Positions 26,588 through 43,786 of a stretch of DNA of 64,000 bases are shown here, one piece after another (the first letter of the stretch is position 1; every line of letters begins with the position of its first letter). This DNA comes from Streptomonospora litoralis (lineage in GTDB: Bacteria; Actinomycetota; Actinomycetes; Streptosporangiales; Streptosporangiaceae): assembly GCF_004323735.1 (NCBI RefSeq), contig NZ_CP036455.1:5513101-5577100 (forward strand), in the 5' to 3' direction. The notes under the pieces were generated by a model. It was not told where the DNA came from. It was given only the letters and a program-made list of their open reading frames with translations, and did no database searches. The translations under genes were made by a program, and so were the position numbers.

Positions 26588-26933
26588 TACGGCGGCCCAA
26601 CGCCGCCCCCGCCCGGCGCGCCACCGGCGAGCACCCGGCCCGACCCGCCAAGATCCGCCAACACCGCACGGCCAACCGAAACCGCGCCGCCGACGACCGT
26701 GATCGCCCTCATACCGGTGATTCCCCAATCGGTTCGGCGGCACATGATTCTCCGGTGCGCGTGCCGTATCCTGCCGAGGACCGGGCTTCCGCTCCCCCCG
26801 CTGGACCGGCATTGCGGTCGATCGCCTCCGCCCGGTTGCGGTGACTGGGCCTGCCCCTCTGGCCCGTATCCGCTCATTCCGGCAACGACGATCGCGCTCC
26901 GCGATAACGTATGCACCCGGAGGTGTGCATCCG

Positions 26934-28658: not shown

Positions 28659-28698
28659 GGCTGCCCGCCCTCGCCCCGCAGGAAGCGCCTCGGCGGCG

Positions 28699-29379
28699 TC
28701 AGCGGCGCTTGTTGCGCAGCTCCGCGACTAGGATCGCCGCCTGGGTGCGGCGCTTGAGGTCCAGCTTGGACAGCAGGCTGGACACGTAGTTCTTCACGGT
28801 CTTCTCCGCCAGGTACAGCCGCTCGCCGATCTGCCGGTTCGTCAGCCCTTCCCCGATCAGGTCGAGGATTTGGCGCTCCTGGGGGCTGAGTTCGGCCAGC
28901 GGGTCGGGGTCGGGCGGCCCCTCGCGCAGCCGGTCGAGCATCCGCCCGGCGCTGGCGGGGTCGAGCAGGGACCCGCCCGCGGCGACGGTGCGCACCGCGC
29001 CGACCAGGTCGGCTCCGTGGATCTGCTTCAGCACGTAGCCCGCTGCGCCCGCCATGACCGCGTCGTATAGGGCGTCGTCGTCGGCGAAGGAGGTCAGCAT
29101 CAGGCAGGCGATGCCGGGGTGGTCCGAGCGGATCTCGCGGCACACGCTCACGCCCGAGCCGCCGGGCAGCCGCACGTCGAGCACCGCCACGTCGGGCGAG
29201 GCCAGCGGGATGCGGGAGAGCGCCTGCTCGGCGGTACCGGCCTCGCCGACGACGCGCATGTCCGGCTCGCCCTCCAGCATCGCGGCCACACCCCGCCGGA
29301 CCACCTCGTGGTCGTCGACCAGGAAGACGCGGATGGAGTCGGACCCGGGCTCCGCGCCCGGCTCGCCTGCCGCCGTCAT
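28699..29379 (-). CDS. DevR/NarL-family response regulator
   Basis: A 226-residue two-domain regulator. The receiver domain has VDDHEVVRRG, phospho-acceptor Asp68 in VAVLDVRLPGG, the switch Thr in MLTSFADDDALYDA and Lys in YVLKQIHG. A LuxR-type DNA-binding domain follows: LSPQERQILDLIGEGLTNRQ and AEKTVKNYVSSLLSKLDLKR, as in DosR. It is tail-to-tail with the DevS-like kinase, 40 bases apart, so it has its own promoter. It probably controls a dormancy or low-oxygen regulon; no target is identifiable in the window. Confidence 0.93.
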   Translation of the reverse strand: MTAAGEPGAEPGSDSIRVFLVDDHEVVRRGVAAMLEGEPDMRVVGEAGTAEQALSRIPLASPDVAVLDVRLPGGSGVSVCREIRSDHPGIACLMLTSFADDDALYDAVMAGAAGYVLKQIHGADLVGAVRTVAAGGSLLDPASAGRMLDRLREGPPDPDPLAELSPQERQILDLIGEGLTNRQIGERLYLAEKTVKNYVSSLLSKLDLKRRTQAAILVAELRNKRR

Positions 29380-29587: not shown

Positions 29588-31090
29588 TCAGGGGCGCGCG
29601 TGCTCCCACGGGCGGGCGGTCTCGAACGCGTGGCAGGCCGCCATCACCAGCGCGTCGCCGTGGCGCGGCCCCACGACCTGCAGGCCGACCGGCAGGCCCG
29701 CGTCGGTGAACCCGCAGGGGACGCTGGCGGCGGGCTGCTGGGTCATGTTGAAGGGGTAGCTGAACCCCGCATACGCGGTCCAGCGCCGGTCGGCGGAGTC
29801 GGCCGGCGCCTCCAGACCGGCGTCGAAGGCGGTGATGGGCATGGCGGGGGTCAGCAGCATGTCGTAGTCCCGGTGGAAGCGCCCCATCGCCTCCCCCATC
29901 GCCATGCGGGTGGACATGGCGGTCAGGTAGTCCTGCGCGGAGTAGGTCAAACCCTCCTCGATGATCTCGCGCAGGCCGGGGTCGAGCAGTTCGCGCTGGG
30001 TTCCGGTGAGCTTGTCGGTCGCCTTGGCGGCGCCCGTGTACCAGAGGATCTGGAAGTGTTCCCGCGATTCCGGAATCGGCGGGTCCGTCTCCTCGACCAC
30101 GGCGCCCATCTCCTCGAAGGCCGTGACCGCATCGGCGACGATGCGGGCCACCTCCGGGTCGACCGACAGGTGGCCCAGCGCCGGGCTGTAGGCGATCCGC
30201 AGCCCGCGCATCGGCGTGTCCAGCGACTCGGCGAAGGACACCGCGGGCTGGGCCAGCCGCGCCCAGTCGCGGGCGTCGGGCCCGGTGATGACGTCGAGCA
30301 TGAGCGCCGCGTCGGCGACCGTGCGCGTCATCGGACCGGAGTGCGCGAGGCTGCCGAACGCGCTGGCCGGGTAGTGCGGCACGAGCCCCCACGTGGGCTT
30401 GATGGCGAAGACGCCGGTGAAGCTGGCGGGGATGCGCACCGACCCGCCGCCGTCGGTGCCGGTGGCCAGCGGGCCCATGCCGGACGCGAGGGCGGCCGCC
30501 GCGCCGCCGCTGGAGCCGCCCGGCGTCTTGGCGAGGTCCCAGGGGTTGCGGGTGATTCCGGTCAGCGGGCTGTCGGTGACGCCCTTCCAGGCGATCTCGG
30601 GCGTAGTGGTCTTGCCGACGAACACCGCCCCGTCCTCGCGCAGGCGCGCAACCACCGGGGAGTCCTCCGCCCAGGTCTGGTTCTGGTCGGTGGTGAGCGA
30701 GCCGCGCAGCGTGGGCCAGCCGCGGGTGAACATGATGTCCTTGATCGACGTGGGCACGCCGTCGAGCCGGCCGATCGGCTCGCCGCGCCGCCAGCGCTCT
30801 TGCGACTCACGCGCCGCGGCGCGTGCCTCGTCCGGCTTGACCAGGCAGAAAGCGTTCAGCGCGGGGTTGTCGCGGTCGATGCGCTCCAGCACGGCGTCGG
30901 TGGCCTCGACCGGGGAGAGTTCGCCGCGGGCGTAGCGGTCGAGCAGCTCGGTGGCCGAGAGCCGCGCCGGGGAGTCGGCCGGCTCCGCGCTCGCGGGGGC
31001 CGCGCTCGCGGGGGTCTCTTCGCCCCGCGGCGCCTCCGCCTCCGGGTCGCCCTGCGAACCCTGGTTCAGCCCCTCGAACCTGGTAGTCAA
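29588..31090 (-). CDS. Amidase-signature family enzyme
   Basis: A 500-residue amide hydrolase. The Ser-cisSer-Lys triad is visible: Lys117 in VPTSIKDIM, Ser193/194 in TPGGSSGGAAAA, and nucleophile Ser217 in TGTDGGGSVRIPASF. The TTG start is chosen because AGGAAGG lies eight bases upstream; the frame continues open far upstream without one. Residues 1-45 are acidic and variable. It follows the D-2-hydroxyacid dehydrogenase on the same strand (102-base gap), so it probably shares that gene's GntR-controlled promoter. It would release an amine or ammonia from an amide in the catabolic pathway. Confidence 0.92.
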   Translation of the reverse strand: MTTRFEGLNQGSQGDPEAEAPRGEETPASAAPASAEPADSPARLSATELLDRYARGELSPVEATDAVLERIDRDNPALNAFCLVKPDEARAAARESQERWRRGEPIGRLDGVPTSIKDIMFTRGWPTLRGSLTTDQNQTWAEDSPVVARLREDGAVFVGKTTTPEIAWKGVTDSPLTGITRNPWDLAKTPGGSSGGAAAALASGMGPLATGTDGGGSVRIPASFTGVFAIKPTWGLVPHYPASAFGSLAHSGPMTRTVADAALMLDVITGPDARDWARLAQPAVSFAESLDTPMRGLRIAYSPALGHLSVDPEVARIVADAVTAFEEMGAVVEETDPPIPESREHFQILWYTGAAKATDKLTGTQRELLDPGLREIIEEGLTYSAQDYLTAMSTRMAMGEAMGRFHRDYDMLLTPAMPITAFDAGLEAPADSADRRWTAYAGFSYPFNMTQQPAASVPCGFTDAGLPVGLQVVGPRHGDALVMAACHAFETARPWEHARP

Positions 31091-31191
31091 TCTAGCGTCC
31101 TTCCTGTGCGTTGCGCGTGGGTGGGCGGAGCGCGGATCTCCCCGGTCGCCGCGCCCGCCGACGGGGGCGGAGGCGGGGGCCGGGGCGGGTG

Positions 31192-32208
31192 TCAGGGGCC
31201 GGAGACGTAGCCGCGGGTCTTGTCGACGACGTTGAGCAGCGGCCCCTCGTTCAGGAAGCGGTCGAGGTTGTCGGCGAACAGGTCGACCAGCTCGTCGCGC
31301 CAGCCGACCACGTCGCCGGACATGTGCGGGGAGACGACGACTCCGGGCATGTCCCACAGTGGGGAGTCGGCGGGCAGGGGCTCGGTGACGGCCACGTCGA
31401 GCGCCGCGCCGCGCAGCTCCTGCGCGCGCAACGCCGGCACCAGCGCGTCCTCGTCGACCAGCCGGCCGCGGCCGACGTTGATCAGCCGGGCGGTGTCGCG
31501 CATGTGCGCGAAGAACGCGGCGTCGGCGAGGTTGCGGGTGGCTGCGGTGAGCGGGGCGGCCAGCACGACGTAGTCGGCGCGCGGCAGCGCCTCGGCCAGT
31601 CCGGGTGCCGCGGTGTCCAGGGACGCCTCGACCACGGTGCCGAAGTCGGGGTCCTCGGGGCGCGCGGTGCGGCCCGCGCCCTCGACGCTCATGCCGACGG
31701 CCCGCAGCTGGCGGGCGATGGCGCGTCCGATGGGCCCGGTGCCGATCACCAGGGCGTGCCTGCCGCCGACGCGCTCGGTCTCGCGGTGGTGCCATTCGCG
31801 GCGGCGCTGGAGGTCGAGGGTGGTGGGCAGGTCTTTAGCGAAGGAGATCACGAGGCCGAGGACGTACTCGGCCATCGGCTGGTCGAATACGCCGCGGGAG
31901 TTGGTTACTACGACGTCGCCGCCGACCATCGCGTCGAACATGAGGTTGTCGACCCCGGCGGTGGCGGCGTGCACCCAGCGCAGGCTGTCGGCCTTGGGCC
32001 AGGCGGCCTTAAGCGCCTCGGAGAAGAGGTCCCAGACGAAGAGCGCCTGCGCCCCGGGCAGGACCTCGCCGAGGGTGTCGGCGGTGGCGTGGCGCACCGA
32101 GGCCAGCCGCGGGTCGGCGTCGAAGCGCTCACCGCCGGGCGGCAGGTCGTCGCCGTGCAGGACGACCAGGTTGACCGGGTCGGTGTGCGGCGGGTTTGCG
32201 GATGTCAC
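31192..32208 (-). CDS. D-2-hydroxyacid dehydrogenase
   Basis: About 338 residues, NAD(P)-dependent. The cofactor loop is ALVIGTGPIGRAIARQL, the substrate Arg is in INVGRGRLVDEDAL, the Glu in DVAVTEPLPADSPLW and the catalytic His in VVVSPHMSGD. The start is uncertain: GTG 32208 has GGGAG upstream at a longish distance, whereas a GTG at 32277 lacks one. It is transcribed away from the DUF3830 gene, with a GntR-type site at 32416. With the amidase it forms the minus-strand arm of the catabolic locus. It likely interconverts a 2-oxo and a 2-hydroxy acid of that pathway. Confidence 0.9.
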   Translation of the reverse strand: MTSANPPHTDPVNLVVLHGDDLPPGGERFDADPRLASVRHATADTLGEVLPGAQALFVWDLFSEALKAAWPKADSLRWVHAATAGVDNLMFDAMVGGDVVVTNSRGVFDQPMAEYVLGLVISFAKDLPTTLDLQRRREWHHRETERVGGRHALVIGTGPIGRAIARQLRAVGMSVEGAGRTARPEDPDFGTVVEASLDTAAPGLAEALPRADYVVLAAPLTAATRNLADAAFFAHMRDTARLINVGRGRLVDEDALVPALRAQELRGAALDVAVTEPLPADSPLWDMPGVVVSPHMSGDVVGWRDELVDLFADNLDRFLNEGPLLNVVDKTRGYVSGP

Positions 32209-32415
32209 TGCGGGCGGCTCCCGGTTCACAGACGTGGGCGGCCTGATGGTGTCGTTGCTCTGTCTACCCTCGATCACTGCCGTCGTCGCGGTTGTCGGCC
32301 GCCGCGTCGCGATCCTCGGCCGCCGCGACCGGCGACCGCCGCACGCGCGGCCGGTCGGCCCGGGAACAGGCGCCGTCGTTGCGAAGCGGTTGAAACGCTA
32401 GGGAGCCTCCGTAGG

Positions 32416-32427
32416 ATTGTCAACAAT
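32416..32427. promoter_or_regulatory. GntR-type operator, copy 1
   Basis: ATTGTCAACAAT, preceded by GTAGG. It lies about 210 bases upstream of the D-2-hydroxyacid dehydrogenase start. The same extended site, inverted, occurs before the aminotransferase at 40161. Confidence 0.65.
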
Positions 32428-32635
32428 ATCCGGCGAAGTCGGCGATGCAGCTTGATCGGGCCGGATCGGCACGGCGGCGGCGCGGGGGCGCCGTGGGCGA
32501 TGCCGGCGCGCCTTGCCGACCGACAACCGCCGCCGGGTTCCCCGTGGCGGCCGCCGCGTCGGCGAGCGACATGTCACGAATAAATAACACGTCGCTGCCC
32601 TCCTGCGTTGCCGCACCCGGCACTGAACTTGTATG

Positions 32636-32647
32636 ATTGTCGACAAT
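32636..32647. promoter_or_regulatory. GntR-type operator, copy 2
   Basis: ATTGTCGACAAT, a perfect palindrome extended by one base on each side to 14 bp. It lies about 305 bases before the DUF3830 start. Form and size fit FCD-type GntR regulators. Confidence 0.65.
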
Positions 32648-32951
32648 CAGCACCGTCGAGCCTGCTGTTCCGCTCCGCCCCCGCGGCGCTGGACACCGCG
32701 GTGCTGAGCGTTGACAAGTCGACAGGGCTCACGGACCGGCGGCGCCCGAGCGGGGCGGCTGCGACAACAGCCCGTTACCGCACCTCCTGCACGCCACGTC
32801 CCGCCATCGGCCGAACCGACTCTTGCGGGGAGACCTCGCCCCGGATCGGCGTCGGCCGCCCCGTCACACGTCCCACTCCCGCCCGGAGACGACCGATCCG
32901 TGTCCGCGGCGGCGCATCACGGTGCCCGCATTAGAAAGGCCCAACACGACG

Positions 32952-33446
32952 ATGCCCAGGTACATGACCATCAGCCTGGAGAAGCGCGGCGTCTCCTGTG
33001 TGGCCGAGCTGCTCGACGAGGACGCTCCCCGCACCTGCGACGCCGTCTGGGAGGCCCTCCCCCAGGGCGGCGACGTTTACCACGCCAAGTACGCCCGCAA
33101 CGAGGTCTACGCGATGTTGCCCCGGTTCGCCGCCGAGGAGCCCGGCCAGGAGAACCCGACGGTCACCCCCATCCCCGGTGACGTCGTCTACTTCTCCTTT
33201 CCCGGGGGCATGCTCGACCGCCGCTTCAAAGAGGAGAAGGGCATCGACCACCTGCCGGGCGTCATCGACCTGGCGATCTTCTACGGCCGCAACAACCTGC
33301 TGCTCAACGGCGACGTCGGCTGGGTGCCGGGCAACGTCTACGCCTCGATCGTGGAGGGGCTGGCCCCCATGGCCGAGGCGTGCAACGACGTCTGGCGCGC
33401 CGGCGCCGTCGGCGAGCGCCTCGTCTACCAGCGGCTCGAAGGCTAG
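32952..33446 (+). CDS. DUF3830 family protein
   Basis: A 164-residue protein. It begins MPRYMTISLEKRGVSCVAEL; the fold resembles cyclophilin-like DUF3830 proteins (ELLDEDAPRTCDAVWEALP is a typical early motif, and VAYFS/VVYFSFPG a later one). No enzyme activity is established for the family; it is often encoded beside amidases and Asp/Glu-racemase-like proteins, as here. The ribosome site is weak (GAAAGG at a distance). It is the first gene of a plus-strand operon of four, under a GntR-type operator. A ligand-binding or chaperone-like role in the pathway is possible. Confidence 0.85.
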   Translation: MPRYMTISLEKRGVSCVAELLDEDAPRTCDAVWEALPQGGDVYHAKYARNEVYAMLPRFAAEEPGQENPTVTPIPGDVVYFSFPGGMLDRRFKEEKGIDHLPGVIDLAIFYGRNNLLLNGDVGWVPGNVYASIVEGLAPMAEACNDVWRAGAVGERLVYQRLEG

Positions 33447-33523
33447 CGCCCGCAATCCACCGAGGGCCGCACTTCCCGCGGCCCGCCAACCCGAGAACAC
33501 GAAGAGAAGGAGGTGAGTGACCA

Positions 33524-34420
33524 ATGCGGACCGATCGAACCGAGACCGACGGAGCACCGGCGAACGGCGGCGAGAAGGAGGAGCGGGTCCTCCTGGAACA
33601 CCCCGGCGCGGCGCGCGCCACCGGCGCGGCCGGCCCGGAGGAGTCCCCCTCGGCGTCCGCCGGCGTGGTGGAGCTCTCCGCTCTGGCCGAGACTCCGTGG
33701 CAGTCGGGGGTGGGCATCGTCGCGCCCTACGACTTCGCGCTGGACCGCGAGCTGTGGCGCTGGGCGCCCGACGACGTCTCGCTCTACGTCACCCGGCTGC
33801 CGTTCGTCCCCGTGCCGGTGACCGTCGACCAGGCTTCCGCGCTGAGCGACGGCGACAACGTCGCACGGGCCACGCGCGACCTGCTGGCTCCCGAACCCCT
33901 CGTGGTGGGCTACGCATGCGCATCGGGCAGCTTCGTGCACGGCGCCGACGGCCAGCGCATGCTCCGCCAGTCGATCCTCGACGCCGGCGCCCCCGCGGCG
34001 GTCACCACCTCCGGGGCGCTGATCCAGGCGCTGCAGGCCCTCGACGCGCGCCGCATCGCCGTCGTCACGCCCTACGTCGACAGCGTCACCGACCGGCTGC
34101 TGGACTACCTGGGCGAGCACGGCGTGGAGGCCACCTCCAGCGTCGGCCTGGGGCTGCTCGGCCACATCTGGAAGACGACCTACTCCGAGGTCGTCCAGGC
34201 CGTGCGCGACGCCGACCGGCCCGAGGCCGAGGCCGTGTTCATCAGCTGCACCAACGTGCTCACCTACGACATCATCGCGCCGCTGGAGCGCATGCTCGGC
34301 AAGCCGGTGATCGCCGCCAACCAGGTGACCATGTGGTCCGCACTGCAGGCCATGGGGCGCCGGGCCGTCGCCCACGGCCAGTACCTCGTCGACGCCACGG
34401 CGCAGAGCACCGCGGCATGA
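33524..34420 (+). CDS. Asp/Glu racemase-superfamily protein, maleate-isomerase/EutA-like
   Basis: A 298-residue protein of the maleate cis-trans isomerase/arylmalonate decarboxylase branch. Residues 1-50 are a non-conserved acidic extension. Both catalytic cysteines are present: Cys132 in VGYACASGSFVHG and Cys242 in FISCTNVLTYD. The start follows AAGGAGGTGA. It probably moves a proton or double bond in a 2-substituted dicarboxylate or similar acid, with the two Cys acting from opposite faces. The next gene encodes a shorter homologue that lacks the second Cys. Together they could be a heteromer or two steps. Confidence 0.88.
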   Translation: MRTDRTETDGAPANGGEKEERVLLEHPGAARATGAAGPEESPSASAGVVELSALAETPWQSGVGIVAPYDFALDRELWRWAPDDVSLYVTRLPFVPVPVTVDQASALSDGDNVARATRDLLAPEPLVVGYACASGSFVHGADGQRMLRQSILDAGAPAAVTTSGALIQALQALDARRIAVVTPYVDSVTDRLLDYLGEHGVEATSSVGLGLLGHIWKTTYSEVVQAVRDADRPEAEAVFISCTNVLTYDIIAPLERMLGKPVIAANQVTMWSALQAMGRRAVAHGQYLVDATAQSTAA

Positions 34421-34541
34421 CCCCCACGAAGGACATGACCGACTCTTTCGGCACGGTCGGTCCGGCCGGCAGGGCCAGGACAGCCAGGACTGCCACCGGA
34501 CCGAACGGCCCCCGAACTCCCAGAAGGGGTGGTACGCGCAC

Positions 34542-35285
34542 ATGACCAGCGTCGGATTCCTTTACCCGGGCTACAGCGCCGAGGACGACTACCCGGTGTT
34601 CGAGCGGATGCTGGGCGGCGACGTCCGGCTGCACCTGGTGCACACGCTGATGCGCGAGGACGCGCACCGCATCGACGCGCTGCTCGACGTGGGCGGCTCG
34701 GACGTGCTGGGCGAAGGTGCCCGGGAGCTGCGCGCCCGCGGGGTCGACGCCGCGGTGTGGGCATGCACCAGCGGCAGCTTCGTCTTCGGCTGGGAGGGTG
34801 CCCGCACCCAGGCCGACGCGGTGGCCGAGGAGGTCGGCGCGCCGGCGTCCAGCACGTCGTTCGCCTTCGTCAACGCCGTGCGGGCGCTGGGGATCGGCCG
34901 GGTCGCGATCGCCGCCAGCTATCCCGACGACGTCGCCGAGCGCTTCGTGGAGTTCCTCGGCGCGGCCGGGACCGAGGTGGTCGCGTGGGCGGGCCGCGGC
35001 ATCGTCACGGCCGCCGAGGTCGGCACCCTGCAACCCGCCGATGTGCTGGACTGGGTGGCGGCCGGAGACGACCCCGGGGCGGAGGCGGTGCTGGTGCCCG
35101 ACACCGCCCTGCACAGCGCCGCCGTACTGGAGGACCTGGAGGCGCGGCTGGGCAAGACCGTGCTGACCGCCAACCAGGTCAGCATCTGGGAGGGGCTGCG
35201 CCTGGCCGGGGTCACCGCCCCCCGCGAAGGATTGGGCAGTCTCTTCCGGGCAGGGGCACAGGCGGCGGCCGCAGCCGAGGCTTGA
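34542..35285 (+). CDS. Asp/Glu racemase-superfamily protein lacking second catalytic Cys
   Basis: A 247-residue homologue of the preceding gene product. The first catalytic Cys is kept (Cys75 in VWACTSGSFVFG), but the position of the second, SCTN in the paralogue, reads VPDTAL, placing Asp187 there. Arylmalonate decarboxylase also works with a single Cys, so a decarboxylase-like reaction is possible. The start follows AGAAGGGG at about nine bases. It lies between the first racemase and the GntR gene in one operon. The paired, diverged arrangement suggests an old duplication. Confidence 0.85.
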   Translation: MTSVGFLYPGYSAEDDYPVFERMLGGDVRLHLVHTLMREDAHRIDALLDVGGSDVLGEGARELRARGVDAAVWACTSGSFVFGWEGARTQADAVAEEVGAPASSTSFAFVNAVRALGIGRVAIAASYPDDVAERFVEFLGAAGTEVVAWAGRGIVTAAEVGTLQPADVLDWVAAGDDPGAEAVLVPDTALHSAAVLEDLEARLGKTVLTANQVSIWEGLRLAGVTAPREGLGSLFRAGAQAAAAAEA

Positions 35286-35376
35286 GCCCGCGTGCGCGTC
35301 CCCGGCGCAGCGCCGCGCCGGGGACGCGTCGGAGCGGGGCACGTGTGTGCAGCAGAAAGAGAGGAGAACGGATGCT

Positions 35377-36075
35377 ATGAACTCCCACGGCGGACTCGAA
35401 CCGGTGCCGCGGAGATCCACGGCCGCGCTGATCGCCGACCAGCTGCGCTCGGCGATCATGTACGGCCACCTGGCACCGGGCGACCAGCTGGGCGAAACCG
35501 ACCTCGCGGCACAGCTGGGGGTCAGCCGCGGCCCCTTGCGCGAAGCCATGCAGCGGCTGGTCCAGGAAGGGCTGCTGCGCAGTGAACGGCACCGCGGCCT
35601 GTTCGTCCGCGAACTCGAAGCCGAGGACGTCCGCGACATCTACGTGGCGCGGCTGGCGGTCGAGCGCGCCTCCTGTGAGCTGGTCATGCGCGGCAACCGG
35701 GGAGAGGCGCTGGCGCGCCTGACGGCCTCGCTGGAGGAACTCGTCCAAGCGGCCGAGACCGGCGACCGCACCGCCATGAGCGACGCCGACCAGGCGTTCC
35801 ACCAGACCCTGGTGAGCTGCTCGGGCAACCGGCGGCTGGAACGCATGGCGCAGACGCTGCTGGTGGAGACCCGGATGTGCCTGACCGTGATGCAGGACGT
35901 CTACCCCGAGGCCGCCGAGCTCGTCGACGAGCACCGCAAGCTGCTCGACGCCATAACCGAGGGCGACGAGAAGCAGCTGCTGAACCTCATCGAATCCCAC
36001 ATGCTGGACACTGTGGACCGCATCAACACCACCGGCCCCGCGGCGATCCGGCGTTCGACAAGCGCGCAGAACTGA
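35377..36075 (+). CDS. GntR-family (FCD domain) transcriptional regulator
   Basis: A 232-residue regulator. The winged HTH spans about residues 10-75 (ALIADQLRSAIMYGHLAPGD, ETDLAAQLGVSRGPLREAMQRL). The all-helical FCD ligand domain follows, with metal/ligand residues in DQAFHQTLVSCSGNRRL and VDEHRKLLDAI (two His) and a final SHMLDTVDRI His. It ends the DUF3830 operon; a hairpin terminator follows at 36118. It most likely binds the three ATTGT-N2-ACAAT sites in this locus and responds to a carboxylate intermediate. Confidence 0.93.
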   Translation: MNSHGGLEPVPRRSTAALIADQLRSAIMYGHLAPGDQLGETDLAAQLGVSRGPLREAMQRLVQEGLLRSERHRGLFVRELEAEDVRDIYVARLAVERASCELVMRGNRGEALARLTASLEELVQAAETGDRTAMSDADQAFHQTLVSCSGNRRLERMAQTLLVETRMCLTVMQDVYPEAAELVDEHRKLLDAITEGDEKQLLNLIESHMLDTVDRINTTGPAAIRRSTSAQN

Positions 36076-36117
36076 GCGGGCGCGGCGCGGCCTGCGGCGC
36101 TCCGCCGAGGGGTCGCC

Positions 36118-36147
36118 GGGGTCGATCCCGACGCCAGGATCGACCCC
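36118..36147 (+). terminator. Terminator of the DUF3830-GntR operon
   Basis: GGGGTCGATCC and its exact inverse around an eight-base loop, 43 bases after the GntR stop codon. Confidence 0.7.
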
Positions 36148-36216
36148 AGGGACACTCGGCGCTCTTACGGGCACCACCCGCGAGTGGACCGGTTTGGTGT
36201 GCCGATCCGACCGGCG

Positions 36217-36441
36217 TCAGCGGACGGCGGCCGGGTGGGCACAGGGGACACCGACACCGACACCGACATAGGGACGCACCCGCGGCGCTCCGGCTCCCGC
36301 TCCCCACCGACGGCGCCGCATGGTCCTGCCCGGCAGCGGCGGAAGCCGCCACTGCTCCGAGAACGGGTATCCGCAGTAACCGCACAGCGCCGCGAGGTTG
36401 GGGCGCGTGCACAGGCGGCAGCGCCAAAGGGCGGGGCTCAC
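36217..36441 (-). CDS. Small zinc-ribbon protein
   Basis: A 74-residue protein starting with GTG overlapping the preceding stop (GTGA). It contains WRCRLCTRPNLAALCGYCGY, giving C-x2-C-x8-C-x2-C, a zinc ribbon, followed by a basic, Val/Gly-rich tail. It is the last of four small overlapping minus-strand genes. Function unknown; such ribbons bind nucleic acid or protein partners. Its short length and overlap position make it easy to miss. Confidence 0.6.
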   Translation of the reverse strand: MSPALWRCRLCTRPNLAALCGYCGYPFSEQWRLPPLPGRTMRRRRWGAGAGAPRVRPYVGVGVGVPCAHPAAVR

Positions 36442-36758
36442 GGTGTCCCCCTTCCGTTGAACGGGAGCGATAGCGGCGAGTCGAGCGCGTAGACGCTGGG
36501 CTCCCACCGGTCCATGACCGTCCGGAACAGCACGCGCTGGGCCGAGCGGCGCGGCAGCCGGTTCCCGGCGCTGGAGCAGCGGGGCAAGCCGACTTCGCGG
36601 ACATTGGTCTGTAGTTCCTGGTAGCCGACGGGGTACCACTCGAAGAGGAGCCTGGTTCCGTGCCCGTCGCACCGGAACACGACGCCGGACTCGGGTATCT
36701 GCGTCCAGGAGCGCAGTGGATCGATCACGGGTGTGTCACCGGGCGTAATGGCGCTCAT
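36438..36758 (-). CDS. Small conserved-looking protein, unknown function
   Basis: A 106-residue protein. It contains an Arg- and Trp-containing middle and a compact C-terminal segment VLFRTVMDRWEPSVYALDSP. There is no membrane segment and no Cys cluster (Cys only at FRCDGHG and PRCSSAG). The ATG overlaps the stop of the gene before it, and its stop overlaps the zinc-ribbon start, so all four small genes are translationally coupled. I do not recognise the family. Confidence 0.6.
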   Translation of the reverse strand: MSAITPGDTPVIDPLRSWTQIPESGVVFRCDGHGTRLLFEWYPVGYQELQTNVREVGLPRCSSAGNRLPRRSAQRVLFRTVMDRWEPSVYALDSPLSLPFNGRGTP

Positions 36759-37009
36759 GTGTCGTATCCCAGGTGTCCGCGGGCGAGCGAAGCGATCGCC
36801 CGGTCTATCCAGTCATCCGAGATGCCGTTCAGCGACAGCCACGCTCGCAGGGTGCGTTCGTCGGCCTCGAAGCGCCGTCCGGGCTCCAGGAGGCGGCCGG
36901 CCGTGTAGGCGCGCTCCGGTGGGGCGGCGGGGTCGTAGGAGACCTCCACGGCGTCGCGCAGGGCGATGTCGGTGCGCGTTCCGAGGGCGGAGAGCCGGGC
37001 GAGGATCAT
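36755..37009 (-). CDS. Small helical protein, unknown function
   Basis: An 84-residue protein (MILARLSALGTRTDIALRDA at the N terminus, ending SLARGHLGYDT). The middle reads RAYTAGRLLEPGRRF and the C-terminal half is helical with WLSLNGISDDWIDRAI. Both ends overlap neighbours by four bases (ATGA). No function can be assigned. Codon use is slightly less GC-biased than the large genes nearby. Confidence 0.6.
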   Translation of the reverse strand: MILARLSALGTRTDIALRDAVEVSYDPAAPPERAYTAGRLLEPGRRFEADERTLRAWLSLNGISDDWIDRAIASLARGHLGYDT

Positions 37010-37215
37010 GCGGCGGCCCTCCCCCGTGCGAAGCGACGCGCGTAGTCGTCGAGGTAGTGCACCGAAGCGAGCGGTTTCCGCTGCTGCTCGGGTGCGGGGG
37101 CAACGGGTCGGTCGGCGGCGACGACCCATCGGGGTGCGGCGTGCAACCCGCGCGCGGGACGCACCAATCGGACAATCAGTGCCAGTGGAGCGAGTAGGGC
37201 AACTATGATCGGCAT
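37006..37215 (-). CDS. Small membrane-anchored protein, first gene of a four-gene operon
   Basis: A 69-residue protein with an N-terminal hydrophobic segment (MPIIVALLAPLALIVRLV), then a basic linker and a C-terminal helix ASVHYLDDYARRFARGRAAA. The start follows AGGAGC. It leads the overlapping set of four small genes and is divergent from the XRE regulator gene. Unknown function; the block looks like accessory or integrated-element cargo. Confidence 0.6.
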   Translation of the reverse strand: MPIIVALLAPLALIVRLVRPARGLHAAPRWVVAADRPVAPAPEQQRKPLASVHYLDDYARRFARGRAAA

Positions 37216-37396
37216 CGTTCGCAGCTCCTATTTAGCTGTGGGCCGTGCCCCCGGACGCCCGGCAGCGTCGCGGGGGTCTTTCTATGCGCCCCAGCATGAC
37301 CGCTGACTTATCACCCGTCCATGGATACCGCTGAAGAGGTCAATCTTTAGATAAGAAGTGATTGCCAGCGGTAGAGTAGCGGTAGATACTGATTAC

Positions 37397-38218
37397 ATGG
37401 TGAAGACTAAAAACCCTGCCTACCGGAGTTTTGGTCAAGCAGTCCGCCGTTGGCGCGAAGCCGCAGGCATGACGCAAATCGAGCTTGCCAAGGCGGCACA
37501 GACGTCCCAATCTCAGGTGAGCTCGATTGAAACCGGAGAAAAGGGCACAAGTGCGGATCATATTCGGCGCATCGACAACGCCCTTACCGCCGGTGGAGCA
37601 CTGGTGCGGAGATGGGACGAACTCGACGACCACAGCCGTGGTCTTGCGTCGTGGTTCCTGGATGTCGTCACGGTCGAGCGCGAATCATCTGAGATCAGGG
37701 TCTACCAGCCACTAAGCATTCCCGGGCTGCTCCAGACACAGAAGTATGCGCGGGCAATCACCCAGCACGGACATCCTGAGCTAACGCGATCTCAGCTCGA
37801 TGAGCGCGTGTCAGCACGCGCCGACCGGCAAGCCATCCTCGACGATCCAGACGGCCCCATGGTGCGCGTCGTACTGGAGGAACACGTACTTCGTCGCCCC
37901 GTTGGAAGCTATGAGATCATGCGCGAACAGCTTGTGCGCCTGACGGACGTGTCTCGGTCGTCTCGACTGTCCCTCCAAGTGGTGCCCATGACCACGGCTC
38001 AACATCCCGGATCGGATGGGGCTTTCCACATATTCACGGTGCCGGGTAAGGCGCCCATGGCCTACACAGAGACACGACGCCATGGGAACGCCGACGAAGA
38101 CCCGGAAGCGGTCGAGGACTACATGGCCGTCTTCGCCGAGCTTCGAGGTGTGGCGCTCCCCCCGCACGCGTCAAGAGACCTGATGTACAAGATCCAACAG
38201 GAGTTCAGCCATGAGTGA
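37397..38218 (+). CDS. XRE-family regulator with DUF5753 domain
   Basis: A 273-residue regulator of the type found in multiple copies in filamentous actinomycetes. The HTH is at about residues 9-65 (SFGQAVRRWREAAGMTQIEL, SQSQVSSIETGEKGTSADHI). The C-terminal DUF5753 domain includes YQPLSIPGLLQTQKYARAI and DRQAILDDPDGPMVRVVLEE. Its stop overlaps the DUF397 start by eight bases. Such pairs regulate development or behave like antitoxin/toxin modules (for example the Scr1/Scr2 pair described in Streptomyces, from memory). G+C is about 60%, well below the window mean, which suggests recent acquisition. Confidence 0.92.
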   Translation: MVKTKNPAYRSFGQAVRRWREAAGMTQIELAKAAQTSQSQVSSIETGEKGTSADHIRRIDNALTAGGALVRRWDELDDHSRGLASWFLDVVTVERESSEIRVYQPLSIPGLLQTQKYARAITQHGHPELTRSQLDERVSARADRQAILDDPDGPMVRVVLEEHVLRRPVGSYEIMREQLVRLTDVSRSSRLSLQVVPMTTAQHPGSDGAFHIFTVPGKAPMAYTETRRHGNADEDPEAVEDYMAVFAELRGVALPPHASRDLMYKIQQEFSHE

Positions 38219-38390
38219 ATCGAGAGTCTGGCACAAGAGCAGCTACAGCAGCGGGGGAGCAGATAACTGCGTCGAAGTCGCGGCAGGCGCCCAGACCCTC
38301 ATGCGCGACACGCAGCACCGCGAGCACGGCCACCTCAGCTTCCCCTCAGCAGAGTGGTCGGCGTTCCTGTCGGACCTGGAGGCGCTCTAA
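38211..38390 (+). CDS. DUF397 protein
   Basis: A 59-residue protein starting at the ATG that overlaps the XRE stop. It reads SRVWHKSSYSSGGADNCVEV, then RDTQH, and LSFPSAEWSAFLSDLEAL, the standard DUF397 pattern (W-x-KSS-x-S-x-CVEVA, RDS, L-x-F-x4-W-x-AF). It is the usual partner of an XRE/DUF5753 regulator. It is short and easily overlooked. A 23-bp perfect hairpin follows 35 bases after the stop. Confidence 0.93.
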   Translation: MSESRVWHKSSYSSGGADNCVEVAAGAQTLMRDTQHREHGHLSFPSAEWSAFLSDLEAL

Positions 38391-38424
38391 CCCCGCCTCC
38401 CACCTGAGACGTCCTGGGACCAGA

Positions 38425-38473
38425 CATAGGCGGCCCCCGACCGCTTGCGGCAAGCGGTCGGGGGCCGCCTATG
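38425..38473. terminator. Bidirectional terminator, 23-bp stem
   Basis: A perfect 23-bp stem with a three-base loop (CGG), starting CATAGGCGGCCCCCGACCGC. It lies between the DUF397 gene and the convergent dehydrogenase and can serve both. Confidence 0.85.
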
Positions 38474-38486
38474 CCTCCTTACCGGG

Positions 38487-39956
38487 TCACACTCCCCCGA
38501 TACCCACGTACTTCGTCTCCAGGAACTCGTCGATACCGACGCGGCCGCCCTCACGACCCAGTCCCGAGTGCTTGATGCCGCCGAACGGCGCGGCGGGGTT
38601 GGAGACGATGCCCTGGTTCAGGCCGACCATGCCCGCCTCCAGCGCCTCGGACACGCGGAGCCCGCGGTTCAGATCCCTCGTGTAGAGGTAACTGACCAGG
38701 CCGTATTCGGTGTCGTTGGCCGCGGCCAGCGCCTCCTCCTCGGTGTCGAAGGGGATGATGGGCGCGACCGGGCCGAAGATCTCCGTCGTCGAGAGTTCGC
38801 TGGACTGCGGCACGTCGGCGAGCACGGTGGGCTGGTAGAAGTAGCCGTCGCCGGCGCCCGAGGCGCCGCCCACGAGTACGCGGGCGCCGCGGTTCACGGC
38901 GTCGTCCACCAGGCTCTGCACCTTCTCCCGCGCCTTGGCGTCGATGAGCGGGCCCACCTGGACGCCGTCCTCGGTGCCGCGGCCGAGCTTGAGGGCGCCC
39001 ATGCGCTCACTGAGCTTGCGGGCGAACTCGGTGGCGATGCCCGACTGCACGTAGAGGCGGTTGGCGGCCGTGCACGCCTCGCCGATGTTGCGCATCTTGG
39101 CCTGCATGGCGCCTTCGACGGCGGCGTCGAGGTCGGCGTCGTCGAAGACCAGGAAGGGCGCGTTGCCGCCCAGTTCCATGGAGGTACGCAGTACCTGCTC
39201 GGAGCTCTGCTCCAGCAGCTTGCGGCCGACACCGGTGGAGCCGGTGAACGAGACCTTGCGGATGCGGCCGTCGCGCAGCAGCGGCTCGGTGACGCCGCCG
39301 GCGTCGGAGGTGGGCAGCAGGCTCAGCACACCTTCGGGCAGTCCGGCCTCGCGCAGGATGTCGGCCAGCGCCAGGGCGGACAGCGGAGTCTGCTGCGCGG
39401 GCTTGAGGATCATGGTGCAGCCGGCGGCGATGGCGGGGCCGATCTTGCGCGTGCCCATGGCCATGGGGAAGTTCCACGGCGTGATGAGCATGGACGGGCC
39501 AACCGGCTGGCGCATGATCAAAAAGCGCGCCGAACCGTTGGGCGCGATCGAGTAGCCGCCCTCGATGCGCACCGCCTCCTCGGAGAACCAGCGCAGGAAG
39601 TCGGCGGCGTAGGCGATCTCGCCCTTGGCCTCGGCGAAGGGCTTGCCCATCTCCAGCGTCATCAGCAGCGCGAGGTCGTCCTGCCGCTCCATCAGCAGCT
39701 CGAAGGAGCGTCGCAGGATCTCGGCACGCTCGCGCGGCGGGGTCTTGCCCCACGACGGCTGGGCGGCGGCCGCCGCATCGAGGGCGGCGAGGCCGTCGTC
39801 GGTTCCGGCGTCGGAGATCTCGCACAGCGCCGACCCGGTCGAGGGGTCCTCGACCTTGAACGTCGCGCCACTGCGCGCGTCGCGCCACGCGCCGCCGATG
39901 AAGAGCTGCTTCGGCACGCGCTCGACGACCTTCGTCTCCCATTCGGCCAAGGTCAT
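38487..39956 (-). CDS. gabD: NAD(P)-dependent succinate-semialdehyde dehydrogenase
   Basis: A 489-residue aldehyde dehydrogenase. Catalytic Cys295 lies in NIGEACTAANR, Glu261 in SMELGGNAPF and Asn162 in ITPWNFPMA; the cofactor loop is FTGSTGVGRKLL. Length and motifs fit the GabD branch that oxidises succinate semialdehyde to succinate, though other semialdehydes are possible. It is divergent from a class III aminotransferase, the classical GABA-pathway partner. No operator copy is visible in its own immediate upstream bases, so it may be controlled by the site at 40161 in the shared 237-base region. Confidence 0.92.
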   Translation of the reverse strand: MTLAEWETKVVERVPKQLFIGGAWRDARSGATFKVEDPSTGSALCEISDAGTDDGLAALDAAAAAQPSWGKTPPRERAEILRRSFELLMERQDDLALLMTLEMGKPFAEAKGEIAYAADFLRWFSEEAVRIEGGYSIAPNGSARFLIMRQPVGPSMLITPWNFPMAMGTRKIGPAIAAGCTMILKPAQQTPLSALALADILREAGLPEGVLSLLPTSDAGGVTEPLLRDGRIRKVSFTGSTGVGRKLLEQSSEQVLRTSMELGGNAPFLVFDDADLDAAVEGAMQAKMRNIGEACTAANRLYVQSGIATEFARKLSERMGALKLGRGTEDGVQVGPLIDAKAREKVQSLVDDAVNRGARVLVGGASGAGDGYFYQPTVLADVPQSSELSTTEIFGPVAPIIPFDTEEEALAAANDTEYGLVSYLYTRDLNRGLRVSEALEAGMVGLNQGIVSNPAAPFGGIKHSGLGREGGRVGIDEFLETKYVGIGGV

Positions 39957-40160
39957 TGCGGTACATCCCCTTCTGGGCTGGTGGGTAACGGTGCGTCCGC
40001 CAAAGGTGCGAAGGCGCCTCGACGGGTACGCCTTCCCAGCACCGCGCGCGGCCTAACCGCCGCCGGCCGGGTGTTCACGCAGCGGCGATGCCCGGATCCA
40101 TGCGGGGGTAGGCATGGACCTGGACACCGCCTCATGCGGGATGATTGCATAGCTCTGTCG

Positions 40161-40172
40161 ATTGTCAACAAT
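40161..40172. promoter_or_regulatory. GntR-type operator, copy 3
   Basis: ATTGTCAACAAT followed by CCTAC, the mirror of GTAGG in copy 1. It lies 22 bases before the aminotransferase start, where binding would block transcription or initiation. Confidence 0.65.
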
Positions 40173-40193
40173 CCTACGGAAGAGGGTCAGAGA

Positions 40194-41459
40194 ATGGCTG
40201 AGCAGTCGGCCGCGCTTTCCCCCTTGCTCAAGCAGGCGACACCGGTGCTCGCTGCGCGGGGCGAAGGCGTCTACATCTACGACGAGGACGACCGCCGCTA
40301 TCTCGACTTCACCGCCGGCATCGGGGTCACCAGCACCGGCCACTGCCACCCCCGCGTCGTCGAGGCTGCGCAGCGCCAGGTGGCCACGCTCGTGCACGGC
40401 CAGTACACCACGGTCATGCACCGGCCCCTCCTCAGGCTCACTGAACGCCTCGGCAGCGTGCTGCCCGAGGGCATCGACCGGCTCTTCTACGTCAACTCCG
40501 GCAGCGAGGCCGTGGAGGCGGCGCTGCGGCTCGCGCGGCAGGCGACCGGGCGGCAGAACGCGATCGTCTTCCAGGGCGGCTTCCACGGGCGCACGATGGC
40601 GGCGGCGTCGCTGACCACGTCGGGCACCAAGATCCGCGCGGGTATCGGGCCGCTGATGCCCGGCGTGGTGGTCTCCCCGTTCCCCTACGCCTACCGGCTG
40701 GGCATGAGCGAGGAGGAGGCCACCGAGCACGCGCTGCGGGAGCTGGACTACCAGCTGGCCACGGTCAGTTCGCCCAAGGACACCGCGGCGATCTTCATCG
40801 AGCCGGTCTTGGGAGAGGGCGGGTACATCCCGGCGCCGCCGGCGTTCCTGCGCGGCCTGCGCGAGCGCGCCGACGAGCACGGCATCCTGCTGGTGGCCGA
40901 CGAGGTGCAGACCGGGTTCGGGCGCACCGGCGAGTTCTGGGGTCACGACCACGCGGGCGTACGGCCCGACATCGTCATCACGGCCAAGGGGTTGGCCAGC
41001 GGGTTCCCGCTGTCGGCGATCGCGGCGCCCGACTCCCTCATGGAGAAGGCGTGGCCGGGCTCCCAGGGCGGCACCTACGGCGGCAACGCGGTCTCGTGTG
41101 CCGCGGCCCTGGCCACCCTGGACGTCATCGAGGACGAAGGGCTGGTCGCCAACGCCGCCCGGATGGGCGAGCGCCTCCGGGAGGGCCTGGCGGGCGTGGC
41201 GGCCGACCACCCGGTGATCGGCGACGTGCGCGGCCTGGGCCTGATGATCGGCAACGAGTTCACCGCACCCGACGGCTCCCCCGACACCGCCACCGCCACC
41301 CGGGCGCACAAGGCGGCCGCCGACAAGGGTCTCCTCCTGCTCACCTGCGGCCCGCACGGCAACGTCGTCCGGATGATCCCCCCGCTCATCGTCACCGCCG
41401 ACCAGGTCGACGAGGCGGTCACCCTGTGGTCCGCAGCCATGAAGGAGGCCACGGCCTGA
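40194..41459 (+). CDS. gabT: Class III aminotransferase (4-aminobutyrate-type)
   Basis: A 421-residue PLP enzyme. The PLP lysine is Lys265 in VITAKGLASGFP; the cofactor Asp is in LVADEVQTGFGRTGEFWG, and the phosphate loop is YVNSGSEAVEAALRLARQ. Sequence order and partner gene (succinate-semialdehyde dehydrogenase) fit 4-aminobutyrate or a similar omega-amino acid:2-oxoglutarate aminotransferase. The start follows GGAAGAGGG. A GntR-type site covers its promoter, tying it to the amidase/DUF3830 part of the locus. The exact amino donor is not certain, as beta-alanine and others use the same family. Confidence 0.9.
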   Translation: MAEQSAALSPLLKQATPVLAARGEGVYIYDEDDRRYLDFTAGIGVTSTGHCHPRVVEAAQRQVATLVHGQYTTVMHRPLLRLTERLGSVLPEGIDRLFYVNSGSEAVEAALRLARQATGRQNAIVFQGGFHGRTMAAASLTTSGTKIRAGIGPLMPGVVVSPFPYAYRLGMSEEEATEHALRELDYQLATVSSPKDTAAIFIEPVLGEGGYIPAPPAFLRGLRERADEHGILLVADEVQTGFGRTGEFWGHDHAGVRPDIVITAKGLASGFPLSAIAAPDSLMEKAWPGSQGGTYGGNAVSCAAALATLDVIEDEGLVANAARMGERLREGLAGVAADHPVIGDVRGLGLMIGNEFTAPDGSPDTATATRAHKAAADKGLLLLTCGPHGNVVRMIPPLIVTADQVDEAVTLWSAAMKEATA

Positions 41460-42210: not shown

Positions 42211-43710
42211 TCAGCGCTGCAGTGTCAGCAGACCCGGCCGGTACGGCAGGAGACCGTAGTCGCCGCCGGACTCGGGGGAGCGCCCCTGGTAGAGGAACTG
42301 CATGTTGCAGGGATCGACGGTCATGGTCTGATCGGGGTCGGTGCGGATCAGCTCGCCGTGGCTGATGTCGTCGGTCCAGGTAGCGCCGCTGTTGGCCTGG
42401 CCGGCGAAGGGGTTGCTTTCGGTAGTGGCCTGCGGTGTCCACGTGCCGTCCAGGCTGTCGGCTGTGAACGAGCGGAAGTAGCGGTCTCCTTGCGCGCCGA
42501 TCGCTTCGACGATCATGAGGTATTGGTCCTGGCCCTCGACGTTGTAGACCTGGACCGCTTCAAACAGGTCGTTGGTGCTTTCGGACATGATGGTCGTCGA
42601 GGTCGAACCGAAGCTGCCAGGGAAGTCGCCGATAGGCATACTGTCCCGGTAGATCCTGCCGTTGTCTCCGGCGAAGAACAGGTACATGTCCGTGCTGTCG
42701 CCGATGAGCGCCTGATCGATGGGCCCTGTGGAGGAGTCGGCGATGCTGCCGTCGAAGAGGGTCTGCGCCTGCGACCAGCTGTTCACGTCGGCGGGATCGG
42801 TTGATGTCCGGTAGGAGAAGGCGGGTCCGGCCCACTGGTAGGCGAGCACCCAGACGTCCCCGGGGGCGAAGTAGAAGAGGGTCGGCGCGACGGCGGCGAA
42901 GGGCATCGGGTTCTGGCCGGCCGAGTCCATGCCGGACCAGTCGTTGAAGAGGTCGAAGTTCATCGAGCCCCATGTCGATCCGGTGTCGTGGTTCGTCGCA
43001 TAGACGAGATGCTGGCCGTTGTAGGGGGCGTGGGTGAAGTCCTTGAGCGAAACCCATCCCTGACTCGGCTGCGCCAGCGGGCCGGTCGAAGTCCAGTCGT
43101 ACGTCGAGGGAAGAGCGCACGTGTCGTCCGCCCCCTCGCCGTCGACCCGGACGAGTCGCCACTGCTGGTGGTCGCCACCCGAGTCGTCGGCCTGCACGAT
43201 GTCGGCACCGTCCGCGTGCGAGGCGCCCTGTACCTCTAAGGCCTTACCGCTGTGCCGGTTGATCAACCGGACGTAGCCGCCGGGTGAGTCTTCCAACCGG
43301 AACTGTTGGTTGGCCTGGTTGTAGTCGGTCCACTGGACGATGTCGGCACCGTTCGCGGTCGACCAGTTGTAGACGTCAAGCACCTTGTCCGAGATCCGTG
43401 ATTGCAAGCGGTAGTAACCGTCGCCGGAGTCGACGAACCGCCACTGCTGCTGGTGCTGGTCGTTCCGGGTCCACTGGGTGATCCGCGCCCCGTTGTCGGT
43501 GGCCCGGTTGTACACATCCAACGCTTTGCCGCTCTCGCGGTTCACCAGGACGTATGACGCGTTCGTGTCGACTGTCGCGGCCGCGGCGGGTGCCGGTTCG
43601 ACCACGGTGCCGGCACTGGCGACCACCATGACCATCACGCCGGCGATGATGGCTCGCAGGCCCCCTCGCTGTCGCAAGGGCGCGATCGGAAACCTAGTCA
43701 ACGTAGACAT
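42211..43710 (-). CDS. Secreted GH62 alpha-L-arabinofuranosidase with ricin-type CBM13
   Basis: A 499-residue exported enzyme that removes arabinose side chains from arabinoxylan. Residues 1-46 are a signal peptide ending PAAAA. A ricin/CBM13 trefoil (about 50-190) has three QxW repeats (QQQW, NQQF, HQQW). The GH62 five-bladed propeller follows: [33 protein letters not shown] (base Asp), [20 protein letters not shown] (Asp332) and [16 protein letters not shown] (acid Glu). The start follows AGGAAGG. Two LacI-type sites upstream fit induction by plant polysaccharide sugars. Confidence 0.93.
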
Positions 43711-43786
43711 GGTCCTTCCTCTCGGGGCCTGGAGGTGCACGATTTCCCCGGAGGGGCCAGCGCGAACCCAGGCCAGCGCTCGTAAT

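Follow-up and report, generated by a model that had tools for sequence, protein, structure and literature searches.

Which regulator reads a short palindrome that recurs before several genes of a presumed catabolic locus in Streptomonospora litoralis, and on which compound does this locus act? The locus lies in a stretch of 64,000 nucleotides (contig NZ_CP036455.1, positions 5,513,101 to 5,577,100, hereafter the window) and comprises genes for an amidase (AMI), a D-2-hydroxyacid dehydrogenase (HDH), a DUF3830 protein, two proteins of the EutA superfamily (AMD1 and AMD2), a GntR regulator with an FCD domain (GntR-FCD), an aldehyde dehydrogenase (ALDH) and an aminotransferase (AT). Its operators, their conservation, their overlap with the HDH-side promoter, the content of the regulon, the links to transporters and to the ectoine hydrolase DoeA, and the active-site residues were all taken from sequence comparison. 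On balance, we lean towards a catabolic regulon that would be repressed by its own GntR-FCD protein and whose substrate is most likely ectoine, 5-hydroxyectoine or a close relative. Copies of this site are found in relatives before genes for ectoine-type importers and for an ectoine-opening enzyme, and the cluster therefore probably represents an undescribed ectoine-type catabolism.

The first-pass annotation of the window had placed ATTGT-N2-ACAAT before the dehydrogenase/amidase arm, before the DUF3830 operon and before the aminotransferase gene, and three exact copies of ATTGTNNACAAT are present at these places (Table 1). A search of the window with one mismatch allowed added no site, and three sites were reached in none of 100 dinucleotide-preserving shuffles. 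Operators 1 and 2 both lie in the gap between the divergent HDH gene (minus strand) and the DUF3830 operon (plus strand), while operator 3 ends 21 bases 5' of the AT start codon ATG and also faces the divergent ALDH gene. The mirror-image GTAGG extensions described for two of the sites are real: operators 1 and 3 have the form ATTGT-N2-ACAAT-CCTACGGA, the extension pointing to HDH and AT, respectively. In the whole genome (5,814,190 bases), the exact pattern occurs at four places, three of them at the locus. The fourth, ATTGTGCACAAT, is flanked by two MarR-type genes, and an OsmC/Ohr-type gene follows downstream (as judged from the translations); with these neighbors, we take it most simply to be an OhrR site, and it was rejected as a member of the regulon. 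Allowing one mismatch genome-wide gave four further places, compared to one for a backwards control pattern. The annotation had also proposed a genome scan for further sites, such as one at a transporter; no transporter was found under an exact site in S. litoralis.

The placement of the sites is strongly conserved. A search with the DUF3830 protein yielded 567 relatives, of which the best 80 loci (1.508 Mb, some cut by contig ends) were kept; these loci are closely related and hence not independent, and several of the near genomes considered below are the same genomes as some of the loci. AMI, HDH, DUF3830, AMD1, AMD2 and GntR occur together in 77 of the 80 loci, with AT in addition in 67, and with ALDH as well in 42. 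All 196 exact sites in these loci are found at three promoter regions of the gene set and none elsewhere, when any site between two named genes is assigned to that interval. The HDH-DUF3830 gap holds 105 sites (including the far site of L015; G and L numbers are our handles for genomes and loci), covering 78 of the 78 loci that contain both genes and including 26 second sites; AT is preceded by a site in 65 of the 69 loci that have this gene, and 26 sites lie in the AMD1-AMD2 interval. The shuffles, the rarity in the genome and the placement of all 196 sites together rule out a chance origin. Conservation extends to the flanks (G...C), and the two sides combined give the longer palindrome CCGTAGGATTGTCRACAATCCTACGG. 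At HDH and AT, the outer part of this palindrome is retained largely on a single side.

The position of the sites also suggests how they may act. On the HDH-facing strand, TTGACA-N17-TAGCGT is found in 74 of 78 aligned loci, and its TTGACA lies within the operator, so that repression by occlusion of the promoter is likely. The looser TTGACA-N16-18-TANNNT occurs in 76 of the 78 loci, compared to a mean of 2.4 and a maximum of 9 when the downstream part was shuffled. On the DUF3830 side, a putative promoter was read by eye from the window sequence, and parts of both of its boxes recur in the consensus of the 26 second sites. A protein bound at operator 2 or operator 1 would thus be predicted to block the polymerase. 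For AT, no clear promoter was found.

More distant relatives indicate which protein reads the site. DUF3830 is present in 43 of 396 sampled genomes of the phylum. Among 20 stretches, most of them from more distant genomes, 19 contain much of the set, with identities of mostly 42-71% and a scrambled gene order, and none of it is seen in L166, next to a short-form DUF3830; in several stretches, the nearest AT or ALDH is just 31-38% identical, or none was seen. Genes in relatives were called by a G+C-position script together with tblastn rather than by a full gene finder, which leaves starts uncertain, and in L161 and L271 the site overlaps the called start. The exact operator is present in 14 of the 20 stretches. 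A GntR search of 20 genomes identified an orthologue in 13 of 18 DUF3830 carriers (E 1e-59 to 5e-50), with G184, G217, G227, G390 and G261 lacking it. The operator was found at the locus in 11 of 12 orthologue-keeping genomes (a tally covering 12 of the 13 carriers, G219 being left out), compared to none of the five genomes without the orthologue. This loss of operator and orthologue together is the best computed support that the local GntR likely reads the site. The idea of one regulon under a shared operator, with its own GntR-FCD protein as the likely regulator, has thus held up well, as the rarity of the site in the genome, the footprints and the co-loss agree.

What the regulon serves is indicated by the genes that have come under the operator in relatives, a link to compatible solutes that the initial pathway idea had missed. 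The same operator lies before, or overlaps, the called start of importer genes at seven sites in six genomes: EhuBCDA in G037 and G042, ProP-like carriers of the major facilitator superfamily (MFS; below model cut-offs) in G042, G154 and G038, and BCCT carriers in G326 and G011. In G037 (L168), each of the four Ehu subunits scores above its NCBIfam equivalog cut-off. Furthermore, G042 (core ATTGTAAACAAT), G154 and G038 encode an M24 hydrolase downstream of the site. The protein of G042 matches ectoine hydrolase DoeA chains in the PDB at 3.5e-104, with no other PDB match below 1e-30, and those of G154 and G038 are weaker DoeA homologues. Four genomes of genus g51 have no GntR orthologue, and their Ehu genes are contiguous with those for the amidase, HDH, DUF3830, AMD1 and AMD2. 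Seven set-linked EhuB proteins and the EhuB of S. litoralis itself keep the Glu, three aromatic residues, Arg and Glu of the ectoine pocket, with Trp or Tyr at some aromatic positions, as read by eye from an alignment against the ectoine-binding positions listed in the consulted part of PMC6915088. Four other aligned proteins depart from this pattern: Ala replaces one of the aromatic residues in L202 and in L203, and one or two positions differ in L283 and L285.

Outside the window, the S. litoralis genome contains ectABCD followed by ehuBCDA. EctB (626 bits, cut-off 552) and EctD (434 bits, cut-off 336.5) score above their models, EctC was assigned by PF06339, EctA by its position and an acetyltransferase domain, and EhuA-D (L199) all exceed curated cut-offs. 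A second, more divergent ectoine synthase homologue lies at G000:C1:3660290-3660643 (PF06339, 128 bits), also outside the window. Among 35 genomes that have the whole set or much of it (parts were unseen in G037, G039 and G040), 25 contain EhuB over the cut-off and 26 ectoine synthase, compared to 9 of 25 comparison genomes in either case. The comparison genomes were selected because they match the GntR protein weakly or lack DUF3830, and two of them, G057 and G302, contain parts of the set; both comparisons are confounded by kinship and weigh little.

Plasmids added another view of the amidase and of the EutA-like proteins. An amidase homologue was found in 125 plasmid records, and of eight inspected regions, three contain Ehu genes, four do not, and one is unannotated. 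Two Mesorhizobium plasmid clusters combine Ehu, M24, M20, an Asp/Glu racemase, an oxidoreductase and a 49-50% identical amidase homologue, and on an S. mexicanum plasmid the amidase homologue (48%) lies near Ehu, M20 and M24. In plasmid region L283, the racemase is 32-34% identical to AMD1 and AMD2, and the oxidoreductase 32% to HDH. Two of four regions with an AMD2 homologue are ectoine clusters, the second having been picked because it is annotated with eutA. When plasmid records were searched for DUF3830, the protein from the window matched nothing at 1e-5, and a relative used as query found only weak matches. A related palindrome, GGATTGTCTACAATCC, was noted on a Sinorhizobium plasmid (L285:14312), where it precedes, within an Ehu region, a gene whose product matches no Pfam family.

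The chemistry of the last steps can be approached from the aminotransferase. Its nearest solved chain is GabT of E. coli (2e-94), the transaminase of gamma-aminobutyrate (GABA). In GabT, Arg141, Arg398, Glu211 and Ile50 serve substrate binding and Lys268 carries the pyridoxal phosphate, and AT keeps all five residues (I50, R141, E211, K268, R398). The FHGRT stretch is present in 70 of 70 AT copies counted, including that of the window, and the AT of G042 has Asp at the Glu211 position. At the R141 position, the EctB of S. litoralis has Met and the Atf of a canonical eut/doe cluster has Ser. The GABA-transaminase residues make an omega-amino-acid step plausible, and they favor a substrate that would lack the alpha-amino group of diaminobutyrate. 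Downstream of the operator, G154, G326 and G038 encode a remote glutamate-dehydrogenase-type enzyme, and the gene after that for DoeA in G042 encodes a class-I aminotransferase. Both kinds of enzyme remove alpha-amino groups and would supply HDH with a 2-keto acid, which may point to a route via malate semialdehyde.

In the mechanism that we infer, which covers binding by the local GntR, repression, the inducer, the substrate and the order of steps, GntR-FCD would occupy the three ATTGTCRACAAT operators in the absence of an inducer, at least two of which overlap predicted promoter elements. The bound protein would shut off HDH-amidase, DUF3830-AMD1-AMD2-gntR and the divergent AT and ALDH genes, and an acid from the pathway would lift the repression. 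The ectoine-type substrate would be made by the cell itself (ectABCD) or imported via Ehu, BCCT or ProP-type systems. The amidase, together with DUF3830 and the AMD1/AMD2 pair, would break the ring or amide and correct the stereochemistry, HDH would handle a 2-keto/2-hydroxy acid, the GABA-transaminase-type enzyme would convert a four-carbon omega-amino acid to a semialdehyde, and ALDH would oxidize the latter to a C4 dicarboxylate for central metabolism. A more detailed version, which we put forward as rather speculative, is a (hydroxy)ectoine route of Actinomycetota that is unlike EutDE and proceeds by ring opening, loss of the alpha-amino group, reduction by HDH, deacetylation by the amidase, transamination by the GABA-type enzyme and oxidation to malate. 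As part of the same doubtful proposal, ring opening would yield gamma-acetyl-diaminobutyrate, whose alpha-amino group would then be lost; in relatives, this step would fall to the glutamate-dehydrogenase-like enzyme or the class-I aminotransferase linked to the operator. After reduction, the 2-hydroxy acid might be processed via 4-amino-2-hydroxybutyrate and malate semialdehyde to malate. If this route were true, it would involve DUF3830 and the AMD1/AMD2 pair as new enzymes.

Several observations weigh against the regulon as we picture it, and against ectoine as its substrate. ALDH is the less constant member and present in only 43 of the 80 loci, and 4 of the 69 loci with AT lack an exact site before this gene. 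G121 has the GntR orthologue without an exact operator in its stretch, and four of the five orthologue-less genomes belong to one genus, so that the five are not independent. AT is only 30% identical to the Atf of the canonical cluster and does not have the Atf active-site residues. ProP-like and BCCT carriers take several zwitterions and osmolytes, EhuB does not exceed the cut-off in 10 of the 35 set-bearing genomes, four of the eight inspected plasmid amidase regions have no Ehu, and two of the four AMD2-homologue regions have no ectoine genes. There is no TTGTNNACAA in the 18.5-kb stretch around the ectABCD-ehu genes of S. litoralis. EutD/DoeA (TIGR02993, cut-off 613) was over the cut-off in none of 40 genomes, with a best score of 32 bits in S. 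litoralis, and ring opening here would therefore need another enzyme. No relatives of EutB, EutC, DoeB, EnuR or AsnC were detected at 1e-25 in the fetched actinobacterial loci, EutB and EutC being searched at these loci and not genome-wide. The search for EutE/DoeB was over the cut-off in none of 34 genomes, the control genomes being silent too.

Three other readings of the substrate have to be weighed. The one closest to the first-pass annotation assumes that an unrelated amide is hydrolyzed, the acid isomerized, and a GABA-like omega-amino acid sent via GabT/GabD-type enzymes to succinate, with the importers bringing in a GABA- or betaine-type zwitterion. The amide hydrolase, the isomerase-type pair and the GabT/GabD-type end of that proposal are supported in part; succinate as the product and the order of the steps would be conjecture. 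Every GABA-transaminase residue tested is kept in AT, the best models for ALDH are those for succinate-semialdehyde dehydrogenase (SSADH), albeit with scores below the cut-off, and the broad ProP-like and BCCT carriers would fit as well. However, a DoeA-type M24 hydrolase and Ehu under the operator in relatives, and the ectoine-binding positions kept in the seven set-linked EhuB proteins (as listed in PMC6915088), speak against this reading, which we regard as unlikely.

A textbook ectoine logic, with ring opening, deacetylation to 2,4-diaminobutyrate, transamination and oxidation to aspartate, could also be carried out by non-homologous enzymes, with hydrolysis by the amidase and with AT and ALDH replacing Atf and Ssd. 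The number and type of steps fit, ALDH is 48% identical to the Ssd of the canonical eut cluster, and among the PDB matches of the amidase is 6-aminohexanoate-cyclic-dimer hydrolase, which opens cyclic amides. On the other hand, AT has Arg where the EctB of S. litoralis has Met, a position whose role is taken from the consulted part of PMC6915088. Four of the five active-site positions differ from Atf, and HDH would be left without a role, which makes this route improbable. The regulon could finally serve another osmolyte common to Ehu, ProP-like and BCCT importers, for example an N-acetylated diamino acid or a proline-betaine-like compound. The lack of a known type of ring-opening hydrolase over the cut-off and the genomes without EhuB mentioned above would agree with this, but the close DoeA homologue under the operator in G042 would not, and we give such a compound a small chance only.

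The annotation had stated that frequent occurrence of the site at unrelated promoters would refute its reading. In S. litoralis this is not the case; in other genomes, the 12-mer core does occur next to other GntR genes as well as other genes, in most cases with flanks that differ. It was found beside other GntR genes in L274, L279 and L280, which were not counted as regulon members, and the core thus seems to be common to several regulators of the family, with the flanks possibly carrying the specificity. Further sites occur in G008 (two, L275), G017 (three) and G184 (one), and a site within a very long open frame in G448 (L273) and one in G002 (L262) were likewise not counted. That a different FCD-type GntR protein encoded elsewhere binds the operators while the local GntR controls something else is very improbable, since the operator follows the local orthologue (11 of 12 versus none of 5) and the G...C flanks are conserved at the sites of the set, although GntR genes beside the same core in other genomes are 28-31% identical to the local one and two more GntR matches with E values of 1e-20 or lower are present in S. 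litoralis.

In three same-genus genomes (L261, L263, L264), ATTGTCAACAAT or its complement with other flanks precedes a gene that we presume from its sequence to be PrpF-like; no exact site of this kind was seen in the S. litoralis genome. G038 contains a second copy of the arrangement (L272:5220-8186), with a ProP-like carrier, a second GntR, an AMD1 paralogue and two operators.

An ectoine-type regulon would have parallels in the EnuR-controlled eut/doe clusters of Proteobacteria (Sinorhizobium, Ruegeria, Halomonas), which share with it a putative EutA-superfamily protein, a class-III aminotransferase with an SSADH-type dehydrogenase, and a regulator of the GntR superfamily; some relatives of the locus add an Ehu importer, and some a DoeA-type hydrolase. 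In some eut/doe clusters, the consulted part of PMC5924519 also describes a hydroxyacid dehydrogenase, hdhD, of undefined role. The present set differs in that its regulator is of the FCD type instead of the MocR type, and in the lack of EutB, EutC, DoeB, EnuR and AsnC relatives at the fetched loci. It adds an amidase, DUF3830 and a second EutA-like protein, and the transaminase active site is GABA-type. In the parts of PMC13188858 that were covered, putative Gram-positive ectoine clusters of Bacillota are described (pucR-eutBCD-atf, abgB-thrA-adh), and these resemble our set as proposed Gram-positive ectoine degradation with Ehu, BCCT or MFS importers. Those clusters were found by EutD/EutB and are PucR-linked, whereas the present set has no EutB, mostly no EutD, and uses a GntR-FCD operator (compared by text, figures aside). 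The word amidase is absent from the main text of that paper, and DUF3830 or an FCD regulator is unmentioned in the text portions covered. Compared to the GabT/GabD pair of the GABA shunt, the active-site residues of the aminotransferase and the SSADH type of the dehydrogenase agree, but here the operator ties the pair to amidase, 2-hydroxyacid dehydrogenase, DUF3830 and EutA-like genes. The regulator resembles other FCD-type GntR proteins (FadR subfamily) in its domains, its short palindromic operator and the location of its gene inside the regulated operon; its orthologue group and the extended site were not met in the literature examined.

Literature searches that paired GntR, the FCD domain and ectoine, that asked for DUF3830, or that combined maleate isomerase, D-2-hydroxyacid dehydrogenase and amidase in a gene cluster found no paper. 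A 2018 review, in the part consulted, restricts ectoine consumers to Proteobacteria (PMC5924519), and the 2026 paper, in the text covered, calls its own Gram-positive clusters tentative (PMC13188858). What is new here is probably an FCD-controlled, ectoine-type catabolic regulon with an enzyme set that differs from known ones. Ectoine makers are frequent among actinobacteria, as the ectoine synthase counts of the set-bearing genomes illustrate, and if our reading is true, the re-use or consumption of ectoines by actinobacteria would be explained by a conserved regulon that has an operator of its own. DUF3830 and the EutA-like paralogue with a Cys-to-Asp exchange would then gain a pathway.

The gene calls of the annotation agree with the naming of the eight genes by Pfam and NCBIfam. 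The amidase is recognized by PRK06169 (754 bits, cut-off 506) and carries the GGSSGG and SIKD stretches. The solved chains nearest to HDH are 3hg7, the phenylpyruvate reductase 8hpg, 3evt and the D-2-hydroxyacid dehydrogenase 5mh5. DUF3830 has one strong PDB match, the uncharacterized 3kop (8e-63), and shows 46 invariant columns in an alignment of 22 sequences (L130 being left out of the count), with the strongest conservation around HAKYARNE, TPIPGD and FYGRNNLL. AMD1 scores 110 bits with the EutA model TIGR02990 (cut-off 318), and AMD1 and AMD2 are 33% and 32% identical to EutA, both below that cut-off. Both superfamily Cys residues are retained in 99 of 99 AMD1 homologues counted; among the AMD2 homologues, the N-terminal Cys is present in 95 of 100 and Asp at the second-Cys position in 98 of 100 (matches shorter than 150 residues were dropped and overlapping ones assigned to the better paralogue). 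In the regulator, the GntR winged helix and the FCD domain both exceed the Pfam cut-offs.

Table 1. Positions of operators, predicted promoters and genes of the locus, counted from the first nucleotide of the window
Feature	Position	Strand	Details
Operator 1	32416..32427	.	ATTGTCAACAAT, CCGTAGG at 32409-32415
Operator 2	32636..32647	.	ATTGTCGACAAT
Operator 3	40161..40172	.	ATTGTCAACAAT, CCTACGG at 40173-40179; between divergent ALDH and AT
Predicted HDH-AMI promoter	32395..32423	-	TTGACA 32418-32423 inside operator 1, 17-base spacer, TAGCGT 32395-32400
Predicted DUF3830-operon promoter	32608..32637	+	TTGCCG 32608-32613, 18-base spacer, TATGAT 32632-32637 overlapping operator 2
AMI, amidase-signature amidase	29588..31096	-	PF01425 353 bits; start codon uncertain
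HDH, D-2-hydroxyacid dehydrogenase	31192..32277	-	PF02826 162 bits; true start may be further inside
DUF3830 protein	32952..33446	+	PF12903 214 bits
AMD1, two-cysteine EutA / maleate isomerase / arylmalonate decarboxylase superfamily	33524..34420	+	PF17645 89.7 bits
AMD2, paralogue with Asp replacing the second Cys	34542..35285	+	PF17645 89.6 bits
GntR-FCD regulator, last gene of the DUF3830 operon	35377..36075	+	PF00392 66.6 bits, PF07729 83.1 bits
ALDH, succinate-semialdehyde dehydrogenase type	38487..39956	-	PF00171 544 bits
AT, class-III aminotransferase, GABA-transaminase active site	40194..41459	+	PF00202 423 bits

Some neighbors of the set deserve mention. Between gntR and ALDH, the set is interrupted by a short hypothetical gene and an HTH_31/DUF5753 (helix-turn-helix) gene (36755-38218), which have no match in the 80 related loci and thus look like a recent insert. 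A GAF-GAF histidine kinase gene (plus strand) and a gene for a LuxR-type response regulator (minus strand) adjoin the amidase gene at 26841-29379, and a close homologue of the response regulator occurs in 27 of the 80 loci. At 42211-43740, a glycosyl hydrolase family 62 protein with a ricin-type lectin domain is encoded, a probable secreted arabinofuranosidase.

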